A stretch of 64,000 nucleotides of DNA from Bacteroidota bacterium (GTDB taxonomy: Bacteria > Bacteroidota > Ignavibacteria > Kryptoniales > JAKASW01). Shown here piece after piece: positions 3,434 to 38,433 of this stretch. Below the pieces are notes generated by a model. That model was not told where the DNA came from, searched no databases, and saw nothing but the letters and a program-made list of their open reading frames with translations. A program made the position numbers and the translations under genes. How positions within the stretch are numbered: the stretch's first letter is position 1; each line of letters opens with the position of its first letter. Where the stretch lies: the NCBI GenBank assembly GCA_021825585.1, contig JAKAGT010000002.1, forward strand, positions 124,001-188,000, read 5' to 3'.

Positions 3434-5137
3434 TTACTTAAGCAAAAGCATTTTTCTCGTCAATAAGTTCGAACCTTCGTGCAGCGAATAGAAATAAACA
3501 CCGCTTGCATACTTGTCCATGTTGACATTGTAGGTGTATGTTCCAGCGGGTTTGTAGCCCTGGTCAACCACATCAACCAACTGTCCGAGGACATTGTAAA
3601 TCGTAAGGCTCATGATCCCCGGCCTGACAAGGCTTACTTTGATTTCAGTCGAAGGGTTGAATGGGTTCGGGTAGTTCTGACTCAGGCTGAACTGAGTGGG
3701 AATGTCGTTCGGAACCTGCTTAACCGCAAGATAGGTAAGGTACCAATTCAAATCGCCGAGCGGCTTCCCGTCGGTGCCCATAGTCTGTAGAGAAGCGTTT
3801 GTATAAGCAAAATTCTCCGGCACCGGATAGCCTTGCGTCTGTGCCCAGTTCTTCGCAACCGGCCCGAACACGTTTGCGGGATTGGTTATGAGCTGCCGCC
3901 AGAGAGGAGAAGTGGAAACCGATCCGTTCCAGCGTGCCACGGTAAACGAGTCCAGGCTGGAAATCATAGGATTGATGATAGAGGCCGAAAAACCCGGATC
4001 TGCATTGACGTTACCTGATTCACTCAAGCCAGGCCAGGCTGTTTTGTTCGAAAACATCGCTTGTGTTTGACTGTTCATCCAAGTGGGTGGAACGATCTTA
4101 TTCTTGGCGGTGTCATTCATTGCTGCGATGGTGGAATCAATTCCTTTTGGCCAGAAATAGGCGTTGTTCTTTACAACGATGTTTCTACCCGCCTCAGTTA
4201 GGTTGTACGGTGGTAAGGCAAACTGGAAGAGGGAGTCAAGTGATATTACCGATGGAGATTCATTTCCCAGCCCGCCGTACTTAATAGAAGCCGAATCCAG
4301 ACCCCCTGCGTAGGTGGCATAGAATATGTTGTTCGAAATGAGTGCCGTGTCAACCTGATATATGCGGAAAGGCCACCAGGCACATCCCACCATCGTGTTG
4401 TGATCAAATTTGAAATATCCAAGATTATCATTGCCCCATATCCCGATCCCGATGCCGAAGTAAGTGTTGTTGGTGAGTACCAGAGTGTCAGCAGCTTCGG
4501 CAAATATAACAGTGGGCTGCCAGAAGGCTCGATCCTGTAAATTTCGGAATTCGGTATTCGTAATATAAAAGCTGTTACTATCACCGCCGTAACTAATTAT
4601 GGCATCGGATTCCTTGGTGAATTCGTCGAACACGCAGTGATTAATTCGCAGCCACGAATGCACTGGAGTTCCGTCAAATAATCTGTTGTTTCCCGAACTT
4701 ATCAATCCGTCGGTGCGCTTGCCCAAGAAGTAGAGATTATCGACGCTAATGTTCCCCGTCCTGCATTCGGTGAAGGGAGCGGGCGTAGAGTTGTCTGAAA
4801 GGATAAACGGTTCAATCACCGGGGGCATACCGGTATTGGGATTGTCCTTTCCTATTATAGTGAGGGTCACACCGTTGAAATTGTTGAGCATGTTAATCGT
4901 AGCGGTAAAGAAATATGTCGTGTCTTTGCTTCCGGTCTGCTGCAGTACGTACACCCTGTTGGGATCCTTCCGGGCTCCTGTTGCGGTGGTATCCCCTGCA
5001 ATGACGTTGTTGATATTTCCCGGCGGCATCGCGGACACATAAAGAGTGTCGGATGACGCTTGGGCGAACGACGAGCTCGGCACTAAGTACAGTGTCGAAA
5101 TCGTGGTCAAAAACAATATGGTGAGCACTTTTTTCAT
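3434..5137 (-). CDS. T9SS-secreted right-handed beta-helix protein, copy A
   Basis: 567 residues from the ATG at 5137, preceded by GAGGAGAGG; an open frame runs 44 codons further upstream but has no ribosome site and no signal. MKKVLTILFLTTISTLYLV is a signal peptide. The middle has beta-helix turns (NNTYFGIGIG, HNTMVGC, NNIFYATY, NNAYFWP), as in pectate-lyase-like and surface-binding proteins; no catalytic residues can be assigned. The last ~80 residues are a T9SS type A sorting domain (LSQNYPNPFNPSTEIKV ... ASGVYFYSLHEG ... RKMLLLK), so the protein should be exported across the outer membrane and retained at the surface or released. It lies 201 bases after TBDR copy A, where SusD would be expected. 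Residues up to about the sorting domain are identical to copy B; the sorting domain itself differs. Confidence 0.85.
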   Translation of the reverse strand: MKKVLTILFLTTISTLYLVPSSSFAQASSDTLYVSAMPPGNINNVIAGDTTATGARKDPNRVYVLQQTGSKDTTYFFTATINMLNNFNGVTLTIIGKDNPNTGMPPVIEPFILSDNSTPAPFTECRTGNISVDNLYFLGKRTDGLISSGNNRLFDGTPVHSWLRINHCVFDEFTKESDAIISYGGDSNSFYITNTEFRNLQDRAFWQPTVIFAEAADTLVLTNNTYFGIGIGIWGNDNLGYFKFDHNTMVGCAWWPFRIYQVDTALISNNIFYATYAGGLDSASIKYGGLGNESPSVISLDSLFQFALPPYNLTEAGRNIVVKNNAYFWPKGIDSTIAAMNDTAKNKIVPPTWMNSQTQAMFSNKTAWPGLSESGNVNADPGFSASIINPMISSLDSFTVARWNGSVSTSPLWRQLITNPANVFGPVAKNWAQTQGYPVPENFAYTNASLQTMGTDGKPLGDLNWYLTYLAVKQVPNDIPTQFSLSQNYPNPFNPSTEIKVSLVRPGIMSLTIYNVLGQLVDVVDQGYKPAGTYTYNVNMDKYASGVYFYSLHEGSNLLTRKMLLLK

Positions 5138-7936
5138 AATGCCTCTCCTCTTTTGGTTTTTTGGCGTCTGACAGAATCTCTGCCAGACATCATTCTTTGT
5201 TTGAAAATACTCCCACTTTCCCCCATTGAGTTCTCTCAATGTTTTACTCGCCAGAAAAATAGTCCGCATATAATTATACTTTTAGCCTTTTAAACCATCC
5301 CTTAACGAATCGAATAAACTTCCTGTTTGTCATGTGCGCTATTGTAAACTCCATCTAAGTCCTAATTGTGCCACCGTGCCATAAACACTTTCGGACGTAG
5401 GGAAACCGTTTCCTTGGACCACATAAGTATCACTTGCATCGTTGAGATTAACCAGGTTCAGGTAAACAACAAGACCGGGCAAAGGAAGATTTTGTTTCGC
5501 CGTCAAGTCCCAACGCAGATATGAAAGTTTCGCGGGACGACGTTCCGGGTATTGATCCGTTCCGGTCGATACGTTCGCCTGGTATATCATGGACACAAGG
5601 ACAGAGAACCCCTGGTAGTCATACCCGACTGATAGATTAACGATGTTATCGGGCTGGTATATCAGGCGGTCGGTATAGAACGTGTCGACGTGAGTCGGTA
5701 TGTAAGTGGGATAAACTCCGGGCTTGGTCATCGTATACGGATATTTTGCACTCGAGAATATATGTGTGTAATTGATGTTGAACACCAATCCGCTCAACAA
5801 TCCGGGCAAATACCAGAAGTGCGTTTGCCAATCGAGCGATGCACCATAGTCGTCAACCCGATTGGGGTTGTTCAAAAAGGTGTTCAATTGAAAGCCTGCC
5901 GTGGTGGGAGGTAGCCCGGGATACTTAGACGGATCAGAGATGAACCTGCTCTGTGCAAATATCATATCATCGATTCTCTTCAGGAATCCGCCGACGGTAA
6001 GGAGTCCGATAGTGTTATCATAGAACGAGAGCTGTAAGTTATAATTCCTCGAATGAGCTGGTTGTAATGCGAAGTTGTTCCAGGTAACTGAGGCATTTGC
6101 CGGGAAGATGTCGATTGTCGGTATGATGCTGGTAAAGTCCGGGTAGGATAGTGTATTGGTATAGGACAATCGTGCGATGAACCATGAGAGCGGCTTGTAC
6201 ATCAAGCTCACGTCAGGCAGTAAATAACCGTGATACTGGGCAATTGTGGTATCCTGATGAGGATAGACACTCGGATAATAAATAATCTGGTTTGCGTTAG
6301 AAATCCTTGCGGTCCGGTATGATGTTGCGAGGCCCTGGTATCGAGCTCCACCTATAAGTGTTATCTGGGGTCCCATATTAACTGTCGCCATTGCATAAGC
6401 AGCACTTTCATCCTCATTTCCGGAATAATTGTTCGCAATGTTGCCGTAAGGGTCAGGAGAGAAACCCCATGACTGCCAGCCGGCTTTAGAGGCTCCCTGA
6501 GAGACGAAATTCACTATTTGTGACAGGAAGTTGAGATTTGGCGCTGGCCCCATCTTGTAGTTGCCATTAAGGAAATTCCCGTAGCTGAAATTCGGGTCGA
6601 TGAAGACAGTTAAGGGAAGTGTTGCGCTCTTTGTCGGATCGAGGTTGTAGGGTGGCTGCTCCATCCATGGATAAGCATGAATGATTGCGCCGTACACGGT
6701 GGTTGAGGCGTCGAAACCTAAGCCGCCGCCCGTCCCGTTGCTGCTATAAGACCGGTGCGTGTAATGATAGCTTCCTCCAAACTTTAGAATCCCTGAGACT
6801 AAATCCGATACACTTATGTTTCTCGTAATATCGATGGACCCCGTAATATTTCTTTGCATTGTGGTACTGTTGCTGGTGTTGATATCCAAGAGCTGCATGA
6901 TTTGCGGGTCAAGTTTGGGCAAAGCGGCCTGCGCAATCAGTTGCGGTGGCAGTGCCCCTGAGACGGTACCCAGGTTTGCAGGGTACTGCTGGAAAGTCAC
7001 CCCCCAGCCTCCGCGAGAAATATTCTCTGAGAGCGAGTGAGAGATCTTCGCATCAAGACCAAATGACAGCACCCTTTGTTTGAAGTCAAGAAGGTTTGTC
7101 ATGACAACAAGCTGGCCGGGTGAATAAGCTGCTCTGTCGATAATCTGGTTTACCTGAAGGTTGTAATCCTGGCTGATCGTCTGCGTATTCGTATTGCTGC
7201 CGCTGAAGAAGTTCATGAAATCAATCTTACCATCGGGCAGCACGTAATCTATATTGATAGTTCCGTTGTACCTGTGCGTGATACTGGGAAGAAAGCTGAG
7301 GGTGAGATCGGTAAGGAGCAAAGGATTATTCGCGCCGGGATTCTTTGACGTGAGAATATAGCTTGCCCCCAACCCATCGCTTGACAAGTTTTCCCGATCG
7401 ACAACGGCTTGCGCGAGAATTCCAAGCCGCTTGTCCAAAAACCTGTCGCCGACAGTGGCGGAAAAGTTGTAATCGCCGAATTGACTTCGGAGACCTTCGT
7501 ATCCTCCCTGTGAGGAAAGTTCAATCTCAGGTGCGCCTGAAGATGTCTGTCTTGCTTCCCTGATTTGGAAGTTCACGACTCCGCCCAGAACAGCCGCGTT
7601 CATATCAGGGGTCACGGTCTTGTATACCTCGATCCCACTAAGCATGTTCGAAGAAATCATGCTCATGTTCACCGCCCGGTCACTACTGCTGGTCGGGGCC
7701 ATTTCTACTCCATCAATCTCAACCCGGTTGTACTTAGGTTGGAGTCCATCGATGGCGACCTCGTATCCCTGCCCTCCCTGCCTGAGCAGGTAAACGCCGG
7801 GAAGTCTGCCGACAGACTCGGCAGCGTTGGCGTCCGGCAGCTGCCGAATTTTAGCGGCAGACACAACACTTACTATCTTGTTTGAGGACAGCTGCTGGTT
7901 TATAGCTGCGTTTTGCCCGCTCGCTTGAACTGTGAC
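3739..7936. repeat. 4.2-kb direct repeat, copy A
   Basis: Nearly identical to 43177-47374, at a constant offset of 39438 and with no length change. Differences noticed are at 3767, 7769, 7868, 7869 and 7871 only, so the interior of about 4 kb looks identical, including the non-coding gap 5138-5338. It covers TBDR residues from about 157 to the end and the beta-helix protein without its sorting domain. Beyond both ends the sequence is still homologous but strongly diverged. Confidence 0.95.
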
Positions 7937-8407
7937 GACTACTTCCTTCCCACGCAAGCCGACCGCCTGCAGCTTTACGTTTTCAACAAGCTTCGCTCCT
8001 CCACTTATTTTTATGTTAATATCTCGTGTTGTGTACCCGATGTACATCACTCGCAAGGTATAGGTTCCAGGCGGTATGGCTTCAATCGTGTACTCCCCGT
8101 CCAGATTTGTCGGCACCCCAAGACTTGTTCCCTTCAACACCACGGTTGCACCAATCAGTGGGTCATTTGTCTCTGCGTCAGAGACCCTGCCTGAAATTTC
8201 GGCATTACCCTGCTGAGTTTTCTCTTTCTCTTGCGGACCGGCCCAATCAGAGGCAATTTCGTTCTGCTCGTACAGATAAGGTCTCAATTGTGACTGAGCA
8301 TTCGGATGGTGGGCAAATCCGTTTCTCTGATTCAGAGGCCAAGCTAAAACAACGGTTGGGATCAAAAATGTCAGACACACCAAGCATAACAATGTATAGT
8401 CTTTCAT
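5339..8407 (-). CDS. TonB-dependent receptor, copy A (no STN domain)
   Basis: 1022 residues from the ATG at 8407 (MKDYTLLCLVCLTFLIPTVV signal peptide); the frame opens further upstream but those residues are charged and lack a ribosome site. Domains in order: a signal peptide and short linker, a CarboxypepD-reg-like beta-sandwich at about 83-160 (GATVVLKGTSLG, GEYTIEAIPPGTY), a plug (LPDANAAESVGRLPGVYLLR, YNRVEIDGVEMAPT, GGVVNFQIREA) and a 22-strand-type barrel ending LGLRWSLQ. The plug resembles the Xanthomonas-Caulobacter type of TBDR more than SusC. It should import an oligosaccharide or similar ligand across the outer membrane using TonB. It follows the LacI gene by 100 bases and precedes the beta-helix gene. 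From about residue 157 it is identical to copy B apart from an S/N change near residue 180. Unlike copy B it has no STN signalling domain. Confidence 0.92.
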   Translation of the reverse strand: MKDYTLLCLVCLTFLIPTVVLAWPLNQRNGFAHHPNAQSQLRPYLYEQNEIASDWAGPQEKEKTQQGNAEISGRVSDAETNDPLIGATVVLKGTSLGVPTNLDGEYTIEAIPPGTYTLRVMYIGYTTRDINIKISGGAKLVENVKLQAVGLRGKEVVVTVQASGQNAAINQQLSSNKIVSVVSAAKIRQLPDANAAESVGRLPGVYLLRQGGQGYEVAIDGLQPKYNRVEIDGVEMAPTSSSDRAVNMSMISSNMLSGIEVYKTVTPDMNAAVLGGVVNFQIREARQTSSGAPEIELSSQGGYEGLRSQFGDYNFSATVGDRFLDKRLGILAQAVVDRENLSSDGLGASYILTSKNPGANNPLLLTDLTLSFLPSITHRYNGTINIDYVLPDGKIDFMNFFSGSNTNTQTISQDYNLQVNQIIDRAAYSPGQLVVMTNLLDFKQRVLSFGLDAKISHSLSENISRGGWGVTFQQYPANLGTVSGALPPQLIAQAALPKLDPQIMQLLDINTSNSTTMQRNITGSIDITRNISVSDLVSGILKFGGSYHYTHRSYSSNGTGGGLGFDASTTVYGAIIHAYPWMEQPPYNLDPTKSATLPLTVFIDPNFSYGNFLNGNYKMGPAPNLNFLSQIVNFVSQGASKAGWQSWGFSPDPYGNIANNYSGNEDESAAYAMATVNMGPQITLIGGARYQGLATSYRTARISNANQIIYYPSVYPHQDTTIAQYHGYLLPDVSLMYKPLSWFIARLSYTNTLSYPDFTSIIPTIDIFPANASVTWNNFALQPAHSRNYNLQLSFYDNTIGLLTVGGFLKRIDDMIFAQSRFISDPSKYPGLPPTTAGFQLNTFLNNPNRVDDYGASLDWQTHFWYLPGLLSGLVFNINYTHIFSSAKYPYTMTKPGVYPTYIPTHVDTFYTDRLIYQPDNIVNLSVGYDYQGFSVLVSMIYQANVSTGTDQYPERRPAKLSYLRWDLTAKQNLPLPGLVVYLNLVNLNDASDTYVVQGNGFPTSESVYGTVAQLGLRWSLQ

Positions 8408-8507
8408 GGCTGCTCTTCTCGATTTCCCGTGTTTGATTATCGACATGCCACATTCACCACATGAACCTGAGTCCCTGTGACGTCCTAAGATGTCCACTGC
8501 ATCAAAG

Positions 8508-9548
8508 TCATGCCATCTCACTGACTTCCTCATCAGACTTCAATGAACATCCGCACGATTCTCTTATAACAATTGAAGTTGTCAAAACCTTTTTTATTCC
8601 TTTCATGCCATCCATGGCTTTTACTCCGTCTAGCAAATGTTTTACCGCGATAGTGCCCATTTCGTATATAGGCACGTGAACAGAAGTTAGAGCCGGTAAA
8701 ACATATCGCGCAGATGGAACATCGTCAAAACCGGCGAGTGCAATTTCACCGGGAACAATTATATCTTTCTCGTGCATCGCCCTCAGAGCACCGAGCGCCA
8801 TCGAATCATTCGCGCAGAATAATGCCGAGGGTTTTGTTTTTAGTTTCAAAATCTTCATCATCCCTTCGTAGCCAGATTCTTCGGTAAAATTGCCCCCTAT
8901 CTCGAGTTCCGGGATCCGGTGGATCCGGTTCTTTTTCAAGGCTTGCAGATAGCCGTTGAATCTTTCGCGCGCATCGAAGTTGCTCTCTTCTCCTTTAATG
9001 ATTGCTATTCTGTCGTATCCATGTCCGATGAGATGCTCTACCATCTGGTACGCGCCGTTAAAGTTATCTATCGAGACTGACACGAATTTAGCACCGTTCG
9101 TGTAGGAGTTGACGAAGACCAGGTTAGAGAGAAGGGACAGCCGTTTCAACACACCTTCCGCGCTGATATGCGGCGACATGATGATCAACCCGTCAACGTG
9201 GCCGCCCTGCATCACATTGAGCATTGACTCGATTTCCTTCTTGTTGCTGTGCGTGCTCGACACGATGATATGATAGGAACGTTCGCGGGCCGCCTGATCG
9301 ATTCCGCGTATCAGTTCGGAGAAGAATTCGCTGTGGACGTCCGGTAGAATCACACCGAGAAGATTGGTCTTATGTGTGACCAGCGCACGGCCGATCGCAT
9401 GGGGCATATAATTGAGCTCATCTATCACGGCGGCAACTCTCTGCTTCGTCTCTTCGGAGACAACCGCGCTGCCGTTGAGGACGCGCGACACAGTGGCAAT
9501 TGAGACGTTTGCCCTCTTCGCCACTTCCTTTATCCCGTTTTTGGACAT
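8508..9548 (-). CDS. LacI-family transcriptional regulator
   Basis: 346 residues from the ATG at 9548, where the helix-turn-helix begins (IKEVAKRANVSIATVSRVLNG), followed by the hinge (NYMPHAIGRALVT) and a periplasmic-binding-protein-like effector domain (LLGVILPDVHSEFFSELIRG, GFDDVPSARYVLPALTSVH). An open frame continues 29 codons upstream but crosses the promoter and operator. GGAGG lies 12 bases before the ATG, a rather long spacing. It is the first gene of a run with TBDR copy A, beta-helix A, GH15-like and GH94, and a perfect palindrome typical of this family sits just after its promoter, so it probably represses its own operon until a sugar binds. The ligand is unknown. Confidence 0.93.
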   Translation of the reverse strand: MSKNGIKEVAKRANVSIATVSRVLNGSAVVSEETKQRVAAVIDELNYMPHAIGRALVTHKTNLLGVILPDVHSEFFSELIRGIDQAARERSYHIIVSSTHSNKKEIESMLNVMQGGHVDGLIIMSPHISAEGVLKRLSLLSNLVFVNSYTNGAKFVSVSIDNFNGAYQMVEHLIGHGYDRIAIIKGEESNFDARERFNGYLQALKKNRIHRIPELEIGGNFTEESGYEGMMKILKLKTKPSALFCANDSMALGALRAMHEKDIIVPGEIALAGFDDVPSARYVLPALTSVHVPIYEMGTIAVKHLLDGVKAMDGMKGIKKVLTTSIVIRESCGCSLKSDEEVSEMA

Positions 9549-9576
9549 CTCTAAGATAAACCTCCAATCAGCTAAA

Positions 9577-9604
9577 ACGGCAATGTAAACGTTTACATCA
9601 CCGT
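9577..9604. promoter_or_regulatory. LacI-type operator
   Basis: The 16-base core at 9583-9598 (ATGTAAACGTTTACAT) is a perfect palindrome with the central CG usual for LacI-family operators. The symmetry extends to 28 bases with two mismatched pairs. It lies directly downstream of the -10 box of the lacI promoter and 29 bases before the start codon, where a bound repressor would block transcription. Confidence 0.8.
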
Positions 9605-9606
9605 TT

Positions 9607-9635
9607 ATTTTAACTCTTTTCCTTTTTCTTGTCAA
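9607..9635 (-). promoter_or_regulatory. Sigma70-type promoter of the LacI-headed operon
   Basis: On the minus strand a perfect -35 box TTGACA (9635-9630) is followed after exactly 17 bases by TAAAAT (9612-9607). The start of transcription would fall inside the adjacent operator palindrome. Confidence 0.65.
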
Positions 9636-9860
9636 GTAAAAAATATACGTGGTGTGACGGCCCCCCGTGGGAATGGCGGGACGCCGGGAAAACGCTCAAC
9701 GGAGATGATCGGCCGGCGACTCCAGGCGTCGCCTCCAGTATTTCTCAGGCTCGGTTTGGACCCCGGGCCACACATTTCGTCGGCACTTGCCGAGGGAATA
9801 GCCCGCGGGCGTCATGACATGAGATGATTAGAAAAAGGCCGCAGTTGACCGAAGGCGACC
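9636..9860. other. Intergenic region upstream of lacI promoter
   Basis: GC-rich stretch without a supportable gene. It holds a small perfect hairpin (GGCGAC 9715-9720 with GTCGCC 9728-9733). Next to the stop of the beta-lactamase-like gene there is a weak stem (arms near 9838-9861) followed on the minus strand by five T, a possible but unconvincing terminator for the glutamine-synthetase operon. Confidence 0.35.
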
Positions 9861-10805
9861 CTAGCCTCCGTGTCTGTGTTCTATCAGTCTAAACACTCTC
9901 TCAGAAATGATTTTCAATCGCGGGTCCGCAACGCTTTCGGTAACCGGAGTGAAGCATGATATGATATACTTAATCTTCCCGTTGCTTACTATCCCCACGT
10001 CGTTTGTCCAGTAGCTCCACCATCCCGTCTTATGGTAGAACATCGTGTTATGCGGGAGTCCCGGGAAGAGTTTCGTTGTATCCAGCTGCCTTCCCAGCAG
10101 CGCCTTCATCTCCATGCTCACCCACGGGTTCACCAGTTGATCGGTATATATTCTGTACATGAAGTCCGCTGCATGCAACGCGCAGGTATTTGTCCCCTTT
10201 GCGTCTTTGTAGGCAGGGTCTTCGTATTCCCTGCTCAGAAATTTTCGCGTGACCTCGCTGCCGTACCACCCGTACTCATCCATCGTCCGATTGATGCTGT
10301 CTCTTTGTGATACATCGATCAGACAGTTTGCCGCGGAGTTATCGCTCCTGGTAATCATGAGATCGAGAAGGTAATTGATAGTTACCGTATCACCCGCCTG
10401 GAGCAGAGGCCTGGGGTCCCAGTTGATCTCCTTCACCTTATCCACATCGTTCGGGGAGTGTACGACATACGGAGTGGTAAGATAGTAATCTCCGTTGCTT
10501 ATTTCCTTAAGCACCTGCATCGCCACGTACATCTTGTATACGCTGGCAGGGTAAATGAACTCGTCGTAATGTACTCCGCCGAGAACCGGCTTCTTTCCCG
10601 TAAGATCGATGACAGCAAGAGAGATTGTCTGCATGCCATCCGCTCCGACGTTGAATGTGCTGTCGAGACCGACTGACTTGACAATTGACATCAATGAATC
10701 CGACAAGCCGTCATCGATCGTGAAATAGCTAGGAACTTTCACTTCCTGGGCGAATCCAGCGGACGCGGCTAGAAGCAAAAGGGCAAGGACATTACGGGCT
10801 TTCAT
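9861..10805 (-). CDS. Exported class A beta-lactamase-like serine hydrolase
   Basis: 314 residues from the ATG at 10805 with AAGGAG 5 bases upstream and a signal peptide (NVLALLLLAASAGFA). It has the penicillin-recognising triad: SxxK as PASVYKM near residue 84, SDN as TRSDNSAAN near 153, and KTG as YHKTGWW near 258. The region where class A enzymes carry ExxLN reads REYEDPAYKD, so the omega-loop signature is not canonical; it may be a beta-lactamase or a related periplasmic serine hydrolase acting on cell-wall peptides. It lies 61 bases after glutamine synthetase and may be the last gene of that operon. Confidence 0.82.
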   Translation of the reverse strand: MKARNVLALLLLAASAGFAQEVKVPSYFTIDDGLSDSLMSIVKSVGLDSTFNVGADGMQTISLAVIDLTGKKPVLGGVHYDEFIYPASVYKMYVAMQVLKEISNGDYYLTTPYVVHSPNDVDKVKEINWDPRPLLQAGDTVTINYLLDLMITRSDNSAANCLIDVSQRDSINRTMDEYGWYGSEVTRKFLSREYEDPAYKDAKGTNTCALHAADFMYRIYTDQLVNPWVSMEMKALLGRQLDTTKLFPGLPHNTMFYHKTGWWSYWTNDVGIVSNGKIKYIISCFTPVTESVADPRLKIISERVFRLIEHRHGG

Positions 10806-10866
10806 GGCGACTCCTTCTCTCTTAGACTTAAAGAATGACAATGTCGACAGCCATTTCCGGGCATAC

Positions 10867-12219
10867 TCAGTACGCGGGGAGATACTTATCCAGCTCCCAC
10901 GGAGTTACGTCCATCCTGTAGTCTTCCCACTCGATACGCTTCGCGGCGATGAACCGGTCAAAGATGTGCGCTCCAAGTGCGTCGCGAACGACTCCATCTT
11001 TTTCCATTTCATCTATCGCTTCATCCAGCGACCCGGGGAGAACACCCAGAGCCGAACCACGCTTGGAGTCAGCCATCAGGTACACGTTTTCTTCCGTAGC
11101 TTCCGGAACAGGGAGTTCTTTCCTGATGCCGTCCAGACCGGCAGCCAGCATCACCGCGAATGCCAGGTACGGATTGCAGCTGGGATCCGGGTTCCGTAAT
11201 TCCAACCTGGTCGATTCATGCGTGTGAGCGCGTGGGATCCTGACGAGCGCCGAGCGATTTATTCTTCCCCAGCTTATGTAGACCGGCGCTTCATATCCTG
11301 AAACCAGCCTCTTGTAGGAATTGACAAGCGGAGCCAGGATTGCGCACATCCCTCTTGCATGTGCGAGCTGCCCGGCCAGAAAGTGTTTCGCAATTTTGGA
11401 GAGGCCGTGTGAATCGCCAGGATCCGAGAACGCGTTCTTGCCGTTAGCCTTGTAAGTAAGGCTCTGATGAACGTGCATGCCGTTTCCGCTTATTCCGCGG
11501 ATCGGCTTCGGCATAAAAGTGGCGTAGAGACCTCTCTGCCGGGCGATGATCTTCACGAGTACCCTGAAAGTTACTGCGTTGTCTGCCGTCTTCAGCGCGT
11601 CGGAATATCTGAAGTCGATCTCATGCTGCCCGGTCGCAACTTCGTGGTGCATCGCCTCGGCTTCAATTCCAAAGGAGGTCAAAGCTCCGGTCACCTGCCG
11701 CCATAACCCTGTAGCCACCATGTCTGCAGGCTGATCGAAATAACTGGAGCTATCCTGGGGCCGGGGTGGAATTATGCTTCCTTCCGCGGAAGGCTTCAGC
11801 AGGAAGAACTCAAGTTCAGGGCCGGTATTGTAAATGTACCCCATCTTACCCGCTTCTGCCACCACCCGTCCGAGCTGGGCACGCGGGTCACCTACGAAGG
11901 GCTGGCCATCTGGCGTGAAAACGTTGCAAATGAGTCGAGCGGTTGTCTCCTCGCCCGTCAACCACGGCAGGACCGCGAACGTCGACACATCAGGTACGAG
12001 GTACATGTCGCTTTCGGCAACGCGGGCAAATCCTTCTATTGAAGACCCGTCGAACCAGATGCCGTGATTCAGAGTGGAAGCCAGCTCCGAGGTCGGGATC
12101 GTCACATTCTTCACCGATCCTCCGATATCGGTAAACTGCAGATCAGTGAACCGTACCCCTTTCTCTTTCACGAGTGCGATGAGTTTGTCAGTATCTATGT
12201 CTTTCATAAGATTTGTCAT
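10867..12219 (-). CDS. glnA: Glutamine synthetase, type I
   Basis: 450 residues. It condenses glutamate and ammonia to glutamine using ATP in the cytoplasm. Family landmarks are FDGSSIEGFARV near the start, GPELEFFL, the NGMHVHQSL histidine region, and the GYEAPVYISW and SRSALVRIP-like segment (NRSALVRIPRA), then RLELRNPDPSCNPYLAFAVML. The length fits the shorter GSI-alpha type; the place where GSI-beta enzymes have the adenylylation motif NLYDLP reads ENVYLMADS, so control by adenylylation is unlikely. The ATG overlaps the TGA of the upstream kinase (ATGA), and no ribosome site precedes it, so translation is probably coupled to the kinase. That arrangement suggests regulation by, or together with, the kinase/phosphatase pair. 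Confidence 0.96.
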   Translation of the reverse strand: MTNLMKDIDTDKLIALVKEKGVRFTDLQFTDIGGSVKNVTIPTSELASTLNHGIWFDGSSIEGFARVAESDMYLVPDVSTFAVLPWLTGEETTARLICNVFTPDGQPFVGDPRAQLGRVVAEAGKMGYIYNTGPELEFFLLKPSAEGSIIPPRPQDSSSYFDQPADMVATGLWRQVTGALTSFGIEAEAMHHEVATGQHEIDFRYSDALKTADNAVTFRVLVKIIARQRGLYATFMPKPIRGISGNGMHVHQSLTYKANGKNAFSDPGDSHGLSKIAKHFLAGQLAHARGMCAILAPLVNSYKRLVSGYEAPVYISWGRINRSALVRIPRAHTHESTRLELRNPDPSCNPYLAFAVMLAAGLDGIRKELPVPEATEENVYLMADSKRGSALGVLPGSLDEAIDEMEKDGVVRDALGAHIFDRFIAAKRIEWEDYRMDVTPWELDKYLPAY

Positions 12220-13187
12220 TTGTGAAAAGTCTGAAGGATCAAAGCAATGGCAATAATGGCAAATAGAAGAAGGATAGCCGAGGCGACGGCTTTGAACGTG
12301 GACGAGCGCCAGAAAGCGACTCCGTAGGACGGACCGGTTGGCCGATCAAGAATCGAGACATCTATGGAATCAAGATTCTCCAGGTCGTGAAGAAGCGCGT
12401 GCATATCAGGATAACGTTCACCCGGATCGCGCTGCAGGCATCTTGCAGTGACTGCGGCAAGTTGAGGCGACACTCCCGGCTGTTTGCGGTCCAGGCGGGG
12501 GACAGCGCTGTTCAGGTGCTGTGCCATAACTGCCAGACTGTTATCACCCGTAAATGGCGGCGCGCCGGTGAGCAGCTCGTACAGCATCGTGCCGACAGCA
12601 TAGATGTCTGTGCGCTGATCTCCACGACGTCCTTCAATCTGTTCAGGCGCCATATAGTCCGGTGTTCCCGCCGCGCTGCTCAAGTTTGCATAAGTAACGC
12701 GGTGAGCACCCTTTGTCAGTGCGAGCCCAAAATCTAAAATCACAGGCTGACCTTCCGAAGTAATGAGAATGTTTTCCGGCTTCAGATCCCTGTGAATTAT
12801 CCCGTGATCGTGACAAGTCGCCAGTCCATCGGCAATCTTCTTTGTAAGTGAAATTGCATCTTCGGGAGGAACCGGAGCCGCCCTGTTGATGAACTCACGC
12901 ATTGACTCGCCATCGACCAATTCGGTTACGAGATACGGGGTGTTATTGTACTGGCCGGAGCCGAGCCCGCGCTGGACAGCAGGATGGTTGAGGGTACGCA
13001 TGACTTCCAGCTCGCGTTGGAATCTCTCATATTGTGCTGGATCTCCGATCGACATGACATCCGGAACCTTGAGAACAACCTCTTTGCCGCTCAATAGGTC
13101 GTAGACCCGGTAGATGTCGCTCATTCCACCCTTGGCGATATGAGCCCGAATCTGGAAGTGATCGAACTGGTCACCAATTTGCAGCAT
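12216..13187 (-). CDS. Membrane-anchored Ser/Thr protein kinase (Hanks type)
   Basis: 323 residues; AGGA lies 6 bases before the ATG. A complete kinase domain is present: glycine-rich loop (IAKGGMSDIYRVYD), VVLKVP lysine, catalytic HRDLKPEN near 130, DFG near 149, the GTPDYMAPEQ segment and DIYAVGTMLYELLTG. A single hydrophobic helix near the C-terminus (about 297-317) anchors it with only a few residues outside, so there is no extracellular sensor domain. Upstream is a PP2C-type phosphatase and downstream, overlapping by ATGA, glutamine synthetase. This suggests a reversible phosphorylation switch built into nitrogen assimilation; the actual substrate is unknown. Confidence 0.95.
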   Translation of the reverse strand: MLQIGDQFDHFQIRAHIAKGGMSDIYRVYDLLSGKEVVLKVPDVMSIGDPAQYERFQRELEVMRTLNHPAVQRGLGSGQYNNTPYLVTELVDGESMREFINRAAPVPPEDAISLTKKIADGLATCHDHGIIHRDLKPENILITSEGQPVILDFGLALTKGAHRVTYANLSSAAGTPDYMAPEQIEGRRGDQRTDIYAVGTMLYELLTGAPPFTGDNSLAVMAQHLNSAVPRLDRKQPGVSPQLAAVTARCLQRDPGERYPDMHALLHDLENLDSIDVSILDRPTGPSYGVAFWRSSTFKAVASAILLLFAIIAIALILQTFHK

Positions 13188-13466
13188 TCAAGATCCTGTT
13201 GTTCCTACTTCTGACGGATTTCCGCGGAAAAAATTGCACGGGGTGCTCCCTGCTCCAACAATTTGTTTTCGATCTAATAAGTGTACTCAAGAGTTCGCTC
13301 AAATGCAACGAATTGCAGCCATTCCGAGTGCCGGCCACCAACTGTGCCGGCGCCAATGCCACCCCCTGAAGCTCATGGCAATACCCCCAATCGCTTGGGC
13401 GGCTTGTCGCCTGATCGAGCAGTTGGCCCAATCCACAGGTTGTACCGGTGCATCGTCACTTCCTGC
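13188..13466. other. Gap inside the nitrogen/signalling operon
   Basis: 278 bases between the phosphatase and kinase genes with no gene I can support. It contains two copies of GCCGGC (13330-13335 and 13346-13351) that can pair as a hairpin with a 10-base loop. No promoter is evident. Confidence 0.3.
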
Positions 13467-14273
13467 TCATCGCACAAATTTGCGGAACAGCCTGGACAAA
13501 GCCGAGGTTCGTATTGCCACAGATGTATCATTCACATTAGCCAGTCGATTCAGATGGATCGCCACGATAGAAACGTTGTCGTCGCTGTTACGCTCCATCG
13601 TCGTCGTGAAAATACGCTGTCCGAGATCTTCGAGGTTGCTTGCCGAATGAGCGAGTGCTCCGAATTCTTCATCTTCGATGACGGACCAGACGCCATCGGT
13701 GCACAATATGATAGTATCCCCGTTTTGCGCCGGCATTTTGAATATATCCGGCTGGACGAAGAGCTCGAGACCGAGGCACTTGTTCAGGACAGACCTCTGA
13801 CTGTGTGAGCGAACCTTATCGGGCGACAGAACCCGCATCCGGACAAGTTCACCAACTCGTGTGTGATCGTTTGTCAGGCACCTGGTACTCCCGTCCCTGA
13901 TCAGGTAAGCACGTGAATCTCCGACATGGCCGATGTAAAGCTCGCTGCCCAGAATGCTTACGGCTGTCAGCGTCGTCCCCATCCTGCCTGCCCCCACCCT
14001 GTGGGCAGTCTGGTAGACGCTAAGATTGGCATTCTGAATGCTGACGCGGAATTTCTGAAGCGGGGATATCCCGTTAGCCGCATAATATGTCTCAAAAAAT
14101 GTTTCGAGCGCAACAGAACTTGCCACTCCGCCGTGGGCATATCCTCCCATGCCGTCGGCGATTCCGTACAAATACCCCGAGACTTCCGAAATGCCGCTGT
14201 CAGGATCGCACAACTTGACAGCATCCTGATTGTCGTCACGTACTTGTCCGACATGACTCAGACTATAAGACAT
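13467..14273 (-). CDS. PP2C-family Ser/Thr protein phosphatase
   Basis: 268 residues from the ATG at 14273, chosen because AAGGAACGGAG lies just upstream and MSYSLSHVGQVRDDNQDA is the usual beginning of bacterial PP2C enzymes; the same frame also offers an ATG at 14300 and opens at 14363. Metal-binding motifs are present: RDDNQDA, GIADGMGGYAHGG, YIGHVGDSRAYL, ILCTDGVW and SDDNVSIVAI. It should dephosphorylate Ser/Thr residues in the cytoplasm with Mn or Mg. It lies between an amino-acid permease and the Ser/Thr kinase, presumably as the kinase's antagonist. Confidence 0.93.
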   Translation of the reverse strand: MSYSLSHVGQVRDDNQDAVKLCDPDSGISEVSGYLYGIADGMGGYAHGGVASSVALETFFETYYAANGISPLQKFRVSIQNANLSVYQTAHRVGAGRMGTTLTAVSILGSELYIGHVGDSRAYLIRDGSTRCLTNDHTRVGELVRMRVLSPDKVRSHSQRSVLNKCLGLELFVQPDIFKMPAQNGDTIILCTDGVWSVIEDEEFGALAHSASNLEDLGQRIFTTTMERNSDDNVSIVAIHLNRLANVNDTSVAIRTSALSRLFRKFVR

Positions 14274-14385
14274 TATCTCCGTTCCTTCGCCTGCTGGCAT
14301 GAAATTGTTCTCGAGACGATAGGGGAACCGGAAGAGAGTATGCACACTCCGTCTCTCTTTCACCAGTCCCCCTTTGTCATTTCAG

Positions 14386-15933
14386 CTATTTGTTCGCTCT
14401 CAGGAACTGCTCCGTTGCGGCTACGGATGGCACGATCGCCTTCCCTACCTTGCGGCTTGTCAGCACCAGGTAACCTACGCTTAGTACGGTCCAGCCAGCC
14501 GTAATCCACAGCGCCATCTTGGTTGCGTCCTGCGAGACCCCCGGCGTACCGAGACCGATAAGCACCACGGCAATGAGCATTGCTATGTTTCCCAGGAGTC
14601 CGAGTATGGGAACAACCGCGTGCTTCAGACTTTGAAATTCGGTGCGCCCGACAAATGTGACGAATGTGAAGAAACAGATGAGTCCGTACAGAGCAAACGT
14701 TCCGATGTTCGAGACCAGAGTGATACCTGTAAGGGCGGTGACGCTGAGGACACCCATGCTGCCGATAATGGCAGAGACAACTACCAGGACCCACACCGCA
14801 ACGTGAGGGGTGGCGTGTCTGGGATGCAGCGCGCCGAGGACACCGGGCATTTCTCTGTCCTGAGAAATGGCGAAGCTGACCCTCACTCCGGTATTTATGG
14901 CAGCCAGTGTCGTTCCAAGAACGGCAATGCCTACGGTGATCGCGACAACTATCATCAGGGCAAATCCATTCCCTCCTAACATCGCATTCCCGATCTGCTT
15001 CGTCAAGTCGCCGATCGGGGCACCTGATGCAGCGGCAGCGGCCATCCCGGTAAGTTTCGTGCCGTCAGATCCGACATACACAAGTTTATCGCTCACCGCG
15101 TAGTTTGCGGCAAAATACTCGAAGAGGTATGCAAACAACCCTTGTATGATAAGTGAGAGTATTACACCCCTCGGTATGTCGCGCTTCGGGTTAATCGCTT
15201 CTCCTGCCAGTGAGGTAGATGATTCAAAGCCCACAAGTATCAGAATTGCAATAGTGGATTGGAAAAGCATCGCCGACAGATTATGGGGCAACAGGATAGA
15301 TGAAGCGGATGGATACGCCCAGTGTGCCGCATGAAGGGGATTTTCGACCCTGAATACTATCGCCATGATACTGAAGCCGACCAAAGAGACGAGCTGTACG
15401 ACGTTTATGGCAATGGCAACGTTGGTGGAGCCTGTTATGCCGCGAACCGCGATGAATCCGACGGTGAATGCGAAAACCACCGCGATAAGGACCTGTGTTG
15501 GGATTGAAAGACTGACGCCAAACTCGCCAAGGATATAAGTAACGAGCGTTGCCATCATTGCGACCATTACTCCCGGATAGACCCAGTAATAAAGGTGGGC
15601 CGCCCATCCGGTCATGAACTTTGCAAGCCGGGCGAAGCGCTGGTGCGACGCTTTCCCGCGGTCAAGAAAGGCTCTTTCGGCAAAGTAATAGGAGCCGCCG
15701 GCTCCCGCCTCAGGATAACGGCGGGCCATTTGGGAAAAGGAAAATGCGGTTAGAAAGGCCACAGTCAGCGCAGCAAGGATACCGCTCCACATGTCCGTCG
15801 CACCGCCTGTGTTTGATGCCTGCAGCTGGAACGTAATCCATAGAAATGCACCTGGCGCGATAAGCGCCATTGCGTTTGCGGTGACGCCGGTAAGTCCAAG
15901 CGTTTTCTTCATTGTTGGTTTATCGTCTGCCAT
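14386..15933 (-). CDS. APC-superfamily amino acid permease
   Basis: 515 residues with about 12-13 hydrophobic helices and AGGAGG 5 bases before the ATG. The first helix (GLTGVTANAMALIAPGAFLW) has the glycine-rich, unwound-helix start seen in amino acid/polyamine/cation transporters, and GFESSTSLAGEAINPKRDIP is the conserved helix 6 region plus loop. A loop rich in alanine and serine (about 275-310) is longer than usual. It should import an amino acid or amine by cation symport across the inner membrane. It follows a porin and precedes the phosphatase, kinase and glutamine synthetase genes, so its solute is likely nitrogen-bearing. Confidence 0.93.
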   Translation of the reverse strand: MADDKPTMKKTLGLTGVTANAMALIAPGAFLWITFQLQASNTGGATDMWSGILAALTVAFLTAFSFSQMARRYPEAGAGGSYYFAERAFLDRGKASHQRFARLAKFMTGWAAHLYYWVYPGVMVAMMATLVTYILGEFGVSLSIPTQVLIAVVFAFTVGFIAVRGITGSTNVAIAINVVQLVSLVGFSIMAIVFRVENPLHAAHWAYPSASSILLPHNLSAMLFQSTIAILILVGFESSTSLAGEAINPKRDIPRGVILSLIIQGLFAYLFEYFAANYAVSDKLVYVGSDGTKLTGMAAAAASGAPIGDLTKQIGNAMLGGNGFALMIVVAITVGIAVLGTTLAAINTGVRVSFAISQDREMPGVLGALHPRHATPHVAVWVLVVVSAIIGSMGVLSVTALTGITLVSNIGTFALYGLICFFTFVTFVGRTEFQSLKHAVVPILGLLGNIAMLIAVVLIGLGTPGVSQDATKMALWITAGWTVLSVGYLVLTSRKVGKAIVPSVAATEQFLRANK

Positions 15934-15982
15934 GTTTTCCTCCTGGATTTATTTATAAACTTAAATGCGTTTGCTAAGCTGA

Positions 15983-17089
15983 CTAAAAGGTCGTTATTAC
16001 TCCGACGAGCAATGTAGGCTGAGAGGTCCTCGTGAAATCGCCTGCATTGAGCGAGCCGGCAGATAAGAACGCCTTGCCGTTCGCGAAGTCGTCTCGCGCT
16101 TCGACCCGCACAATGAGCGGAATCCATGGGCGATATTCGTATGTGAGAGTCACCTCTTTCAGTGTTGCTTTAGGGAATGTCAGACCCGTTGTGTAATCAA
16201 ACGGATCGTAGTAGACTTCCCCGCGGGCCGCGATATCTGATTGGGAGTCAAGATCGTATTTTGCATAAAGAGCAACGCCTTTCCAGTCTTCATAGACCCC
16301 CGCGATGCGATCTCTCCCGTAAACAGCGTCGACCACAAGCGAAAGGTTCCCTACCGATTGTGATATGATTATCTCCGCAAGATCTCTTCTTCCGTACTTG
16401 GCGCCTGCCGGTTGTTCGAATCCACTCATACCGTTGAAGGTCAGCGTCGTGGCTGTGGTGGGGGAATAACTCAACTCCAATCCGAGGTCCTTCGACTTAT
16501 TATTATCGATTACGGTATTCCAGCTGTTCACGATGTGGAGTTGTGCGGAGAAATTGCCAGCGAAGTCATATGTCATTCTTATCCCCTCGTGGTAATAAGG
16601 GATCGCATAGGCAAACAAAAAGGAACGGCTGTAATTCCAGTTGCTATTCGATTCTATCACCTCATTCCCCATGAGCGTCACGAACTTTCCAACATCTACG
16701 GTTAATCCTGACCCGACGGGGAGGAGTGCTTCAATGTATGCTTGTTCCAATAGGGACAATGTGCTGAAAGCATTCGTCCCGTAAGGTGCTACACCCTGTA
16801 CCATGTCATTGGCAGGGCCGAAGGCCAGGTCGAGCCTGAAACCGACCGGCTGTGCCTGCTTCTGTACCGTGAGTTTTGCAAGATTGAATCCAAATTGGTT
16901 GTTGTAAATGTCGAAGTTTCTTAACTGATTCATTTCGTCCGAAGGGCTGTTGAAATTCTTGCTGTAGTAGACATCGACCAGTCCACTCCAGGTGATACCT
17001 GGAGCGGGTGTTGGACCTGAGGCAAACGCGGCGGTCGAAGATAACATGAATATCAGAGGCAGTCCCGGTAGGTGAGCGCGTCCCGTCAT
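15983..17089 (-). CDS. Outer-membrane beta-barrel porin (BBP2/OmpL-like)
   Basis: 368 residues from the ATG at 17089, which is preceded by GGAGG and begins a signal peptide (LPGLPLIFMLSSTAAFASG); the frame is open for 63 more codons upstream without support. The sequence has the typical start GITWSGLVDVYYSKNFNSP, the motif GFRLDLAFGP, DVGKFVTLMGNEVIES and amphipathic strands ending VGVITTF with terminal phenylalanine. It belongs to the putative porin-2 type of barrels and should allow passive entry of small solutes. Its stop lies 49 bases before the permease start, so the two probably form one uptake route across both membranes. Confidence 0.85.
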   Translation of the reverse strand: MTGRAHLPGLPLIFMLSSTAAFASGPTPAPGITWSGLVDVYYSKNFNSPSDEMNQLRNFDIYNNQFGFNLAKLTVQKQAQPVGFRLDLAFGPANDMVQGVAPYGTNAFSTLSLLEQAYIEALLPVGSGLTVDVGKFVTLMGNEVIESNSNWNYSRSFLFAYAIPYYHEGIRMTYDFAGNFSAQLHIVNSWNTVIDNNKSKDLGLELSYSPTTATTLTFNGMSGFEQPAGAKYGRRDLAEIIISQSVGNLSLVVDAVYGRDRIAGVYEDWKGVALYAKYDLDSQSDIAARGEVYYDPFDYTTGLTFPKATLKEVTLTYEYRPWIPLIVRVEARDDFANGKAFLSAGSLNAGDFTRTSQPTLLVGVITTF

Positions 17090-17622
17090 TTGGCCTCCCC
17101 CGGCATCTGGTAAACTTGCCTGGACACATGCTTCGGCAGTGTGCATGATCGTCGATGGATAAACTCTATTTCCTTGTTCACTCGTCCTCCTTCTTCTGAG
17201 ACCTTCGCTCATGGCGTTCCGGATGGTCCGGACAGTCACGCGAAATTCCGGTAACAGTTCTCTGTAGTGCGCATTCATTTACTTTACTAACAGCTCCAAC
17301 TATCTAAAGAATATTAACTGAATTGTCATTGAGCTATAACTAAATAACCTATTTTTATCTTTTTTGTCAAGTAAATTAAATAAAAAGTCGGGAGGACACT
17401 TAAAGATTGAAGAGGCTTTCTTGTGACAGGCGCGCCAATACCAACCGTCAAAATGGGCGTACGCATCGACTGCGTCGGAGTGAGATTCCAGGCTTGAAAG
17501 AATTATCTACCCGAGTCATGCGAACCATACGAGAAAAGGTTGCAGATCAGGTTTCGTTCGGTCCCCGTTTAAGCAGACAGGAAGACCAGTTTTAGGAGGA
17601 GATGTAGGCAGGACCACAAGCT
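17090..17622. other. Long intergenic region before the porin operon
   Basis: About 530 bases without a supportable gene. The part near the porin is open in the porin frame but has no signal peptide or ribosome site. The only regulatory-looking signal is the TTGACA tract at 17342-17370. Confidence 0.4.
17342..17370 (-). promoter_or_regulatory. Possible promoter of the porin/permease/glnA operon
   Basis: A perfect TTGACA (17370-17365) occurs on the minus strand in an A/T-rich tract, followed at 17-18 bases by TTATTT or TATTTA, a poor -10 box. The stretch resembles the lacI promoter tract (TTGACAAGAAAAA versus TTGACAAAAAAGA). It is about 250 bases upstream of the chosen start codon, so a long leader would be needed. 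Confidence 0.35.
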
Positions 17623-17669
17623 GCGCCCTCCCCGGCACAAGCATCATGGCTCGGGCCGGGGAGAGGCGC
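17623..17669 (-). terminator. Strong GC-rich stem-loop after the tricorn-like gene
   Basis: GCGCCCTCCCCGGC (17623-17636) pairs with GCCGGGGAGAGGCGC (17655-17669), with one extra base, across an 18-base loop, 17 bases after the stop codon of the protease gene. There is no T-run, but the stem is the strongest in this stretch and stands at the end of the long hydrolase block, a plausible transcript end. Confidence 0.5.
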
Positions 17670-17686
17670 ATTGCGAATATTACTGC

Positions 17687-20600
17687 TCAGTTGCCGGAGC
17701 CGCTTCCAACTTCAGGCAGCGGCGGAAGCTGCGGATGATAATTCCTGTACGGAGGGGTTTCGTACCTCGGCAACGGATGCTCCTTGAGTTCCTTGAGTGC
17801 GATCTTCACGGCTGCTTCCAGCTGCGGGTCATGCCCATCTCTCACGAGCTGCGGGTTCTGCCAGACGGCAACGTCCGGCGAGATGCCATGGTTCTCAACC
17901 GGGAAAGTACCGTTCAGCCCTTCCACTGCGATACGCGGTGCCGTGACCGTACCACCGTCCATCAGGCTTGGATAACCTCCGATTCCGACAAGTCCGCCCC
18001 ACGTCCTTTCTCCGACGAGCTTGCCAATCTTGTCCATCTTGAAATACCATGGAAGCGCGTCGCCGCCAGATCCGGCGAACTGGTTGATTACCATTACCTT
18101 CGGACCGAAGATCGCCATTGGCGGGCATATGGCCGTCTTGCCGTAGCGAGTAACGTTCATGCTCATCGGCTTGAGTAACAGGTTGTTAATGATATAATCG
18201 GAGATATATCCGCCGTGGTTGAATCGCTCGTCAATTATGACCCCGTCTTTATTCACCTGCGAGAAGAAATACCTGTTGAAATCAGTGAAGCCTTCTCCTG
18301 CCGTATTCGGAAGATAAACATAACCTATCTTTCCATCGCTCAGCCTGTTCACCAATCTCATGTTGTGCCTTATCCATGCCTCATGGCGCAGGGCAAACTC
18401 GCTTGGGATCGTCTTCACGGTAATCTGATGTGAATCCTTCATGTCAGGATTTGGTCCCACGGTAAGAGTCACGGTCTTATTGGCCAGATTCTGGAAAGCC
18501 TCGTAGATATTCATACTCCCCGTAATCTGGCTGCCGTTCACTGCCAGCAGGTAGTCACCGGCTTTCACCTTAAGGCCGGGTTGCGCCAGCGGTGCGTACA
18601 AGCCAGGGTTCCACTCCCCGGCGCTGAATATCTTCGTGATTCTGTATCTGTCATGCTCTACTTTGTAATTGGCGCCGAGCAATCCCACCTTTATGTCGCT
18701 CATTTTCGGCTCGGTTCCGCCGTAGATGAACATATGCCCGACCGACATGTAGCTTAACATTTCCCGGAACAGGAAACTCAGCTCATCTCTGCTGGCAATT
18801 CCGGGAAGATAAGCGGAGAACTCCTTCTCTGCCTGGTCGATGTTGAGACCGTCATAATTCGGGTTGTAGAAGAACGCTCTCTCTATCCTCCAGGCATCAT
18901 GGTACATCTCATCATATTGCTTTCGCGGGTCGACGTAAACCCTCATATCGGAGAGGTTAAGTCGGGAGGGACTGTGCACGCCGGGGCCGCTTGTAGATGA
19001 GATTGACCAACTGCCGCCCTGCTTGTAAAGCATCTTGCTCCCGTTCGCCGAGAGCGCAAATTGTGAAACTCCGCGAACGAGCGTTTCGGTCTTCCGGGAT
19101 TTCAGATTGAATGTGATTACGCTCGCCATTCCAGGAACGCCCCCTGGCACGGAAACCAGGGGAGCCCGAACAAGGAACAGAGTACCGTCTCTTCCAGCTG
19201 CAAGTCCCCGGTAGTTTGCCGGCGCGATGGGCAAAGGTATGACGCGAGATTCGATGTTCGTGAAATCTATTTCGACCGCCTTGGAGCCATTTTTCTTGGC
19301 ATTCGGCTTTTCTTTTCCGGTCTCCTTCTTATGGCTCGACGTGTCCTCTTTCTCGAATCCGCTCTTCGGTGCAAGGGGCGAAGAAATCCCCTTCCTGAGA
19401 ATCAGCGCGTAGACGTTTCGTTCTACCGGTTGCTCAAGCTTCGACATATCGAGCCATCCTTCCGACAATGCGGTATTGGTGCTCGATGTGAAATAGAGAT
19501 ATTTCCCGTCCTTGTCGAAAACCGGATAGAGACAATCGCTCCCTGCATCGGTGATCTGATGGATGCTCCGGTCCTTTAGCGAGTAGACGAACACTGCGTG
19601 GAGATAGTTGGGGAGGACTTTCGTGTAACTGATCCAGCGGCTGTCAGGCGACCAGCTCTCGTCGAATTCATGAAGCTCTGCGTACTGGTCCGCGTCGATC
19701 CTTATCGGCTTAGGGTCCTTCTTAGTAATATCGACATACCAGAGGTTCAGCTTCTGGTCGCTGAACGCGATCTTCTTGCTGTCCGGTGACCAGGCCGGTT
19801 GATAGTAGAATGCGCTCTTCTGTCCGAGAGTAATCATCCTCGGCTTTCCAATCCCGTCCTGGCTGCGAATGTAGAGGTCATATTCGCCGTGCCTGTCTGC
19901 AAAATACGCGATCCACTTTCCATTCGGAGACCAGGCAGGGTTTCGGTCTTCGACCCCCGGACTGCTGGTCAGATTCTCAATGCTGCCATGCCTGGTAGGA
20001 ACCGTGAGAATATCGCCATGCGCCTGGAAGACTGCCCGCACGCCGTTGGGCGAAATATCATAATCGGTTATCTCGCCGGCTACCTTCTGAAAATACGGAC
20101 GAAGTTGAGGCAGATCGCCGGATACGGTAACCGGAACGAAATGGGACGTCTTCGTGGCAAAATCATAGACATACAGCTGTCCGAACTGCGAATAAACGAT
20201 TCCTCCCGGACCTGCCGAAGCCGATGTTATATCGAATCCCTTGTTGTCTATGAGCTTCGTGGTCTCGTGGGTATCTACGTTGTAGGAGAAAAGCGTTATC
20301 GGTCCATCCTGGTCGGAGAGATAATAGACTTTGTTTCCGACCCACATCGGATCATTATAGTTTGCCCCATCCCTTGGGATTTTCACGACGCTCGAGTTCG
20401 AAATAGTCGCGATCCAGATCGGGGTTGTTTGTCCGCCACGGTACCCTTTCCAGAACGGCTCCCACTGGAACGATGGGACATACGCAATTCTTGTCCCATG
20501 AGGTGAGTACGAACCGGTCTCTGCCATGGACAGCGGAAGTTCCTCCGGAAATCCGCCCGTAACAGGGACAGTGTAAAGCTGGTCAGGATCCGAATATGTA

Positions 20601-21040: not shown

Positions 21041-21075
21041 AATGTACTCCTCAAGCTAAAGAGACGTTGGATGAA

Positions 21076-23337: not shown

Positions 23338-23389
23338 TTTTCCCTTTCAAATATTGTTTTTGATCGATACAGTCTGTTGCGCGGCTCTA

Positions 23390-23719
23390 TCATGCTCCAC
23401 GCTCCAGCAATAGAAATCTCACTTCATACGGATTGAACTGAATCTTGCCGGTCACTTTTTTGATGGACTCCTCGAGCGAGTTTATTTCGTAAACCTGTGA
23501 GTCAGGTCATTATACATAATAGGCGGACGAATCGGACGAACGAACCAGCATCGATGAGGTAACCGACGGGTTCGGCGAGTGATATTCGAATCCCCCTCCG
23601 TGGATCGTTCTTTCGTACCCGCTGAAGAAGGTGTCGGGCCAGTTGAACCCGCTTGTCTGCGCAGCAAGGGGAACAGCGGTAAACATCAGAGATGCGGCGA
23701 AAACCAACAGGTTTCTCAT
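23390..23719 (-). pseudogene. Fossil of a secreted GH38-like alpha-mannosidase (both ends kept, middle lost)
   Basis: A good ribosome site (AGGAG, 6 bases) leads into an ATG at 23719 and a signal peptide (NLLVFAASLMFTAVPLAA). The next residues, NWPDTFFSGYERTIHGGG and HSPNPSVTSSMLVRSSDS, resemble the N-terminus of secreted GH38-type mannosidases. After 69 codons come two consecutive stops (TAA TGA at 23507-23512). The same frame then continues PDSQVYEINSLEESIKKVTG to IQFNPYEVRFLLLERGA and a stop at 23390, which resembles the C-terminal beta-sandwich of GH38 enzymes. About 900 residues expected between these ends are missing. The shared frame suggests an internal deletion with the stops at or near the join. 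The first 69 codons could still be translated. The family name rests on resemblance; a functional short secreted peptide is the alternative. Confidence 0.5.
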
Positions 23720-23810
23720 GACGGTCTCCTCCCTGGCGTTGTCCGCGCGGGCAAACAAAGGCCGGATAAATAACCGGTGTCCGGCGGCTGCGCGCCGCCA
23801 AACGTCTCCG

Positions 23811-24932: not shown

Positions 24933-24952
24933 TAGCTTCTCCTGGTCAATCT

Positions 24953-28980: not shown

Positions 28981-29056
28981 GTGCACCTCTCGCTTGTTTC
29001 TGAAATCAGAATCACATGATGCGGCAGGCAGAACATTTCCGGATGCCGCGATATTT

Positions 29057-32185: not shown

Positions 32186-32271
32186 TCCGAAAATTCCTCC
32201 GCGCGAATTATCGACGAACAGGTGTGAAGAGATATTCATTATTCCGATCAATATTAAGCAAGTGTACCATA

Positions 32272-34980: not shown

Positions 34981-35011
34981 GGTCCACCCTTCGATTTGTA
35001 TTTGCAATATT

Positions 35012-35045
35012 GCAGTTATATTAACTGCCGCTTCGTTTGATTCAA
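35012..35045 (-). promoter_or_regulatory. Possible promoter with overlapping palindrome before GH3
   Basis: On the minus strand TTGAAT (35045-35040) is followed after 17 bases by AATATA (35022-35017), a fair sigma70-like pair. A perfect 17-base palindrome (GCAGTTATATTAACTGC, 35012-35028) covers the -10 box, and a second, 10-base palindrome GCAATATTGC follows at 35004-35013. They could be a regulator site for the GH3 gene. Confidence 0.4.
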
Positions 35046-35112
35046 ATAGAGGTCGCTCTTTTCCGCAAAACCGGATCTGATGTGCCTTTGCACTGATGCA
35101 TTTGGACGACAG

Positions 35113-38404: not shown

Positions 38405-38433
38405 TTTTTCCTCCACGGATTTAATACCCGGTC

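Follow-up and report, generated by a model that had tools for sequence, protein, structure and literature searches.

Two uptake cassettes in this Bacteroidota genome share a core of about 4.2 kb that was probably copied from one to the other by recent gene conversion between old paralogues, and that has also been exchanged between species. The cassettes lie 39 kb apart in the window (the whole 64,000-nucleotide stretch analysed, part of a 317-kb contig in a genome of 4.97 Mb and 88 contigs), and are best explained as old paralogous sugar-uptake loci. Each consists of a TonB-dependent receptor gene, followed by a gene for a 611-residue protein with a type IX secretion (T9SS) tail, referred to below as the partner.

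Direct recomputation reproduced exactly the repeat reported in the first-pass annotation. The two copies (Table 1) match at an offset of 39438, with only five differences (positions 3767, 7769, 7868, 7869 and 7871), which is far beyond chance; the 4001 bp of the core (3768–7768 and 43206–47206) carry zero differences as assembled. The edges were said to lie inside genes, and they do, with two genes cut in each cassette. The left edge falls just ahead of the secretion tail of the partner gene, and the right edge at the start of the receptor plug, in the sequence KEVVVTVQASGQ, which is read as the TonB box. The strong divergence described outside the tract is also present: identity between the copies drops to ~75% beyond the left edge (3400–3738), and to ~60% and then to background beyond the right edge (7937 onward). 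A search of the genome for a third, donor copy found none, the next best match being 70% over 0.7 kb. A search for RNA features found none.

Table 1. Coordinates of the two cassettes, the repeated tract and the adjoining genes (positions in the window).
Feature	Position	Strand	Remarks
Repeat copy 1	3739..7936	-	core 3768-7768 identical to copy 2
Repeat copy 2	43177..47374	-	core 43206-47206
Unique spacer between copies, 35 kb	7937..43176	.	GH92, GH125, GH5-like and GH3 genes, and others
Copy-1 receptor (TonB-dependent), 1064 aa	5339..8533	-	CarboxypepD_reg, plug and barrel; STN absent
Copy-2 receptor (TonB-dependent), 1105 aa	44777..48094	-	STN, CarboxypepD_reg, plug and barrel
Copy-1 partner gene, 611 aa	3434..5269	-	T9SS sorting tail; beta-helix fold predicted from the copy-2 model
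Copy-2 partner gene, 611 aa	42872..44707	-	T9SS tail; right-handed beta-helix model, nearest to PL6 lyase C-terminal domain
Copy-1 secretion-tail part outside tract	3434..3738	-	95-98% identical to G008
Copy-2 secretion-tail part outside tract	42872..43176	-	the divergent one; 67-76% to G002, G009, G008
Copy-1 receptor N-terminus outside tract	7937..8533	-	91-94% identical to G008
Copy-2 receptor N-terminus with STN, outside tract	47375..48094	-	78-88% to G002, 67-85% to G009
LacI-family regulator adjoining copy 1	8508..9635	-	
FecR-type anti-sigma protein adjoining copy 2	48048..49364	-	
ECF sigma factor adjoining copy 2	49425..50000	-	

The regulatory ends of the two cassettes are of different kinds. 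Copy 2 combines an ECF sigma factor and FecR with an STN-bearing receptor, the components of a FecIRA-type system; copy 1 does not, its receptor being without STN and its neighbour a LacI gene rather than FecR.

Core and flank give conflicting trees. Copy 1 is closest to relative G008 over the right flank and less than 65% identical there to copy 2, which is closest to G002 and G009 (Table 1); the tree places copy 1 with G008 (support 100/99), and a grouping of copy 1 with copy 2 is rejected (p-AU 0.00026). In the core tree, the two copies fall together with G002 next to them (100/100), the exact identity of the copies being limited by the assembly. The tree of the left tail gives no resolution. 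Grouping of a core by genome and of its flank by locus is what gene conversion, and with it concerted evolution, typically leaves behind, a reading that the sequences compared here support.

The arrangement of genes in the relatives bears on whether both loci exist. On a 12-kb contig of G008, the copy-1 left flank is followed by a core of 92% identity, by the LacI gene and by orthologues of window positions 36086–40066; the LacI side is 84% identical. Orthologues of the copy-2 neighbours adjoin the core in G002, G009, G011 and G004, and the FecR/sigma side is carried by G002 and G009 at 80–82%. With the exception of the divergent copy-2 left flank, all cassette junctions have an independent orthologue; the 35-kb spacer is unbroken unique sequence that runs from one core to the other. 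Since relatives carry either the copy-1 (G008) or the copy-2 (G002, G009, G011, G004) arrangement, both loci are real. The flanks are orthologous locus by locus, in agreement with the earlier proposal of conversion between paralogues; relatives with full-length genes retained as a simple identical duplication were looked for and none was found, each relative showing one locus and one core. A chimera of strains was considered and rejected, as a core junction at each end of the spacer puts the two inner junctions on one molecule.

The perfection of the repeat is at least in part of technical origin. In a 1.63-Mb sample of the genome, which included every contig start, overlaps of 125–127 bp, exact to the base, are common among contig ends, and the sequence contains two stretches of ten N; the overlaps are the mark of a de Bruijn-graph assembly of short reads with k=127, the assembler itself being deduced from them. 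The two copies have blocks of 28, 4001, 98 and 65 bp in common, of which only that of 4001 bp exceeds 127 bp; the simplest reading of the core is thus a single graph edge that was used twice. Apart from it, exact repeats in the sample reach at most 346 bp. Both k-length overlaps between contigs and an edge in common that exceeds k are expected of short-read repeat collapse, and both are seen here. Metagenome assemblers collapse bulges, and fragment lengths below 1 kb leave long repeats unresolved by short read pairs (PMC8021871). An edge written twice guarantees zero internal differences by construction, so the 100% identity is no evidence of recency, and neither identity nor recency is measured here.

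There is about an even chance that such an assembly effect, in which similar but non-identical cores were merged into one edge and written into both loci, made both the identity and the concentration of differences near the ends; that the assembler made these in part is our conclusion in any case. The remark in the first-pass annotation that the differences lie near the ends, with none inside, is accurate as worded, but the assembler yields such a pattern even where there are a few true internal differences. Merging has its limits, however. In a simple simulation, with assumed values for the limits on collapsible bulges, cores differing by ~0.5–1% still merge and cores differing by 2% hardly do, while the cores of G008 and G002 differ by ~12%. 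The true copies are thus probably at least ~99% identical, the exact figure not being readable from the assembly. Since merging over 4 kb needs cores that are ~99% or more alike, the assembly effect accounts for the perfection of the repeat and not for its homogenisation, and is compatible with conversion. An assembly artefact had been named as the main alternative; this holds for the perfect 4-kb identity, but not for the loci, both arrangements of which are found in relatives. Likewise, the proposal of conversion between older paralogues is correct in kind and supported by the orthologous flanks and the conflicting trees, but its best evidence, the perfect identity, comes at least in part from the assembly.

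The core has also been exchanged between species of the genus. Four-fold silent sites of rpoB are only 31–43% identical to those of the relatives, which is near saturation, and silent identity in the neighbouring GH3 and glucoamylase genes is 38–54%. In the core it is 81% for G008, 78% for G002, 79% for G009 and 68% for G011, against a background of 40–48% drawn from rpoB and three neighbouring genes only (Fisher p 1e-25 to 1e-44). The core of G004, at 49%, is close to its own background of 43%. Codon bias was examined as a cause and rejected, as composition alone would give 27%; silent identity this far above background points to exchange. The right edge of the interspecies exchange is variable, from ~7400 to 7936. 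The exchanged unit consists of the plug, the barrel and the secreted partner, while the regulatory N-terminus and the secretion tail stay local. Nor is the mosaic confined to one event here: a like contrast of core and flank between species indicates repeated recombination across lineages, of which the tract described in the first-pass annotation is one instance.

These exchanges lend some weight to an alternative in which a core from another species was imported into both loci, in one or two imports, with no conversion between them. Imports do occur, as shown by a silent divergence of the core between species that is far below background, and a foreign core placed in both loci would leave a similar pattern. 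However, the nearest cores (G008 and G002) are still 8–9% different, so that no sampled species is the donor, and two separate imports would need near-identity; this course of events is unlikely. It is very improbable that one cassette arose by a recent simple duplication and then had its outer ends replaced: later swaps could in principle put edges inside genes, but the orthology of the copy-1 flanks to G008 and of the copy-2 right flank to G002 and G009 means that both loci predate the identity. Least credible of all is a single chromosomal core with its second copy on a circle formed by excision of the 39-kb segment, which the same graph edges and loop-out between direct repeats would permit, since in relatives left flank, core and LacI gene, and glucoamylase gene, core and FecR gene, are contiguous, as in a linear arrangement.

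Under gene conversion, homologous recombination would have overwritten ~4.2 kb of one locus with the sequence of the other, a stretch that runs from the TonB box through the plug and barrel and across most of the partner gene. The regulatory N-termini and secretion tails of each locus would have stayed unchanged. From the sequence pattern, recombination would act on the long conserved core because it is there that similarity has stayed high enough for it. Transporter and secreted partner would then stay matched, with each locus under its own regulator, which may be the benefit of the process. We infer conversion in preference to crossover products, and likewise its direction and the advantage of keeping one core under two regulators. 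The direction was probably from copy 2 to copy 1, judging from few relatives; copy 2 is favoured as donor because between 7396 and 7846 the core is 95–97% like G002 and 80–89% like G008. At positions 7769, 7868, 7869 and 7871 more of the relatives agree with copy 2 than with copy 1, and the copy-1 base is private at 7868, which does not settle the direction. A core clade of copy 2, G002 and G009 is rejected (p=0.0008), and the type of core does not sort neatly with the type of locus.

Further irregularities are seen in the flanks. The secretion tail of copy 2, and with it the DNA that follows (window 42669–43176), is 50–75% identical to G002 and G009, which are otherwise syntenic; just behind the partner gene, G002 and G009 are 90% alike. 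The best matches found for this divergent tail are copy 1 and G008, at 72–74%, and no better donor was found. The near flanks of copy 1 (window 3409–8820) are 91–98% identical to G008 outside the core, falling to 62–80% within the LacI gene; a recent transfer between these two lineages, with its edge inside the regulator gene, is a possible cause of this pattern.

The partner is a T9SS type A cargo protein (PF18962, 36–41 bits against a cut-off of 27; TIGR04183, 44 against 23 for copy 2). Beyond the tail, its body has no match to the PDB or to a Pfam or NCBIfam family in the libraries searched. The predicted model of the copy-2 partner is a right-handed beta-helix (mean pLDDT 77.7), which aligns with the PL6 alginate lyase 7dmk (Z 29.8, 2.6 Å over 294 residues, 17% identity), the match covering the C-terminal part of the lyase only (chain residues 426–747). 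Foldseek alone gave no match for this model at E ≤ 0.001. The model suggests a PL6-type beta-helix, an assignment that concerns the fold only. In 79 loci fetched by receptor similarity (L059–L137), from Ignavibacteria, Melioribacteraceae, Kryptoniota, Calditrichota and Marinimicrobia records, there are 81 receptor genes; the partner lies directly downstream in 68, while eight are at contig ends and five have no partner there. The partner profile was built from these same 79 loci, and a single-sequence search gave the same picture. Because the partner so commonly follows the receptor, the two are probably a functional unit. In two loci (L063, 8285–10981; L064, 9914–12910), the receptor is preceded, not followed, by a partner homologue. 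No paper on the pair was found in the literature searched. The receptor/beta-helix pair is widespread in Ignavibacteria and neighbouring phyla, with a partner body that has no named family in those libraries.

Concerted evolution of prokaryotic paralogues by gene conversion is known, for example in tufA/tufB (PMC6053082). As in that case, paralogues of one genome are closer to each other than to their orthologues, and their genomic contexts are distinct; unlike it, the unit in the present case is not a whole gene but a core that spans two genes and has an edge within each of them. Full-length conversion was the subject of that study, and TonB receptors are absent from its text. The present case belongs to this known kind, with an unusual unit.

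Copy 2 resembles FecA/FecR/FecI signalling (PMC9249621, PMC11637429) in its ECF sigma factor, FecR protein and STN receptor, whereas copy 1 differs in having no STN and lying beside a LacI gene, and the setting is one of carbohydrate enzymes, not iron. TIGR01782 is the best family of the receptor by score, with nearly the full model covered but just under the cut-off (297 against 310 bits), and the Xanthomonas carbohydrate-scavenging TonB loci (PMC1790865) share the neighbouring glycoside hydrolases and the LacI regulator; the T9SS beta-helix partner sets the present loci apart from them. As in SusC/SusD pairs (PMC7782687), a TonB receptor adjoins a gene for a surface partner, but here the partner is a T9SS-tailed beta-helix protein and not SusD, and the receptor scores 58–66 bits on the SusC/RagA model TIGR04056, far under its cut-off of 368.

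The spacer contains a run of GH92, GH125 and GH5-like genes with three GH3 genes (window 21076–41155), which suggests use of mannan or of mixed glycans, and recombination between the direct repeats could lead to loss of this run. A second uptake system, with GH18, SusD-like, TonB-dependent receptor, FecR and ECF sigma genes, lies at window 52262–60002.

For genomes assembled from short metagenomic reads, long perfect repeats should be taken with caution, as they are not measured identity. For the biology of these cassettes, a wider reading can be put forward tentatively: uptake may be modular, with one core of transporter (TonB box, plug and barrel) and secreted beta-helix partner swapped repeatedly as a unit within genomes and between species under STN/FecR/sigma or LacI heads, the edges being set by domain boundaries. 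What the cassettes show is that a receptor core can be homogenised and can pass from species to species without loss of local regulation, so that transport specificity and regulation can evolve separately.
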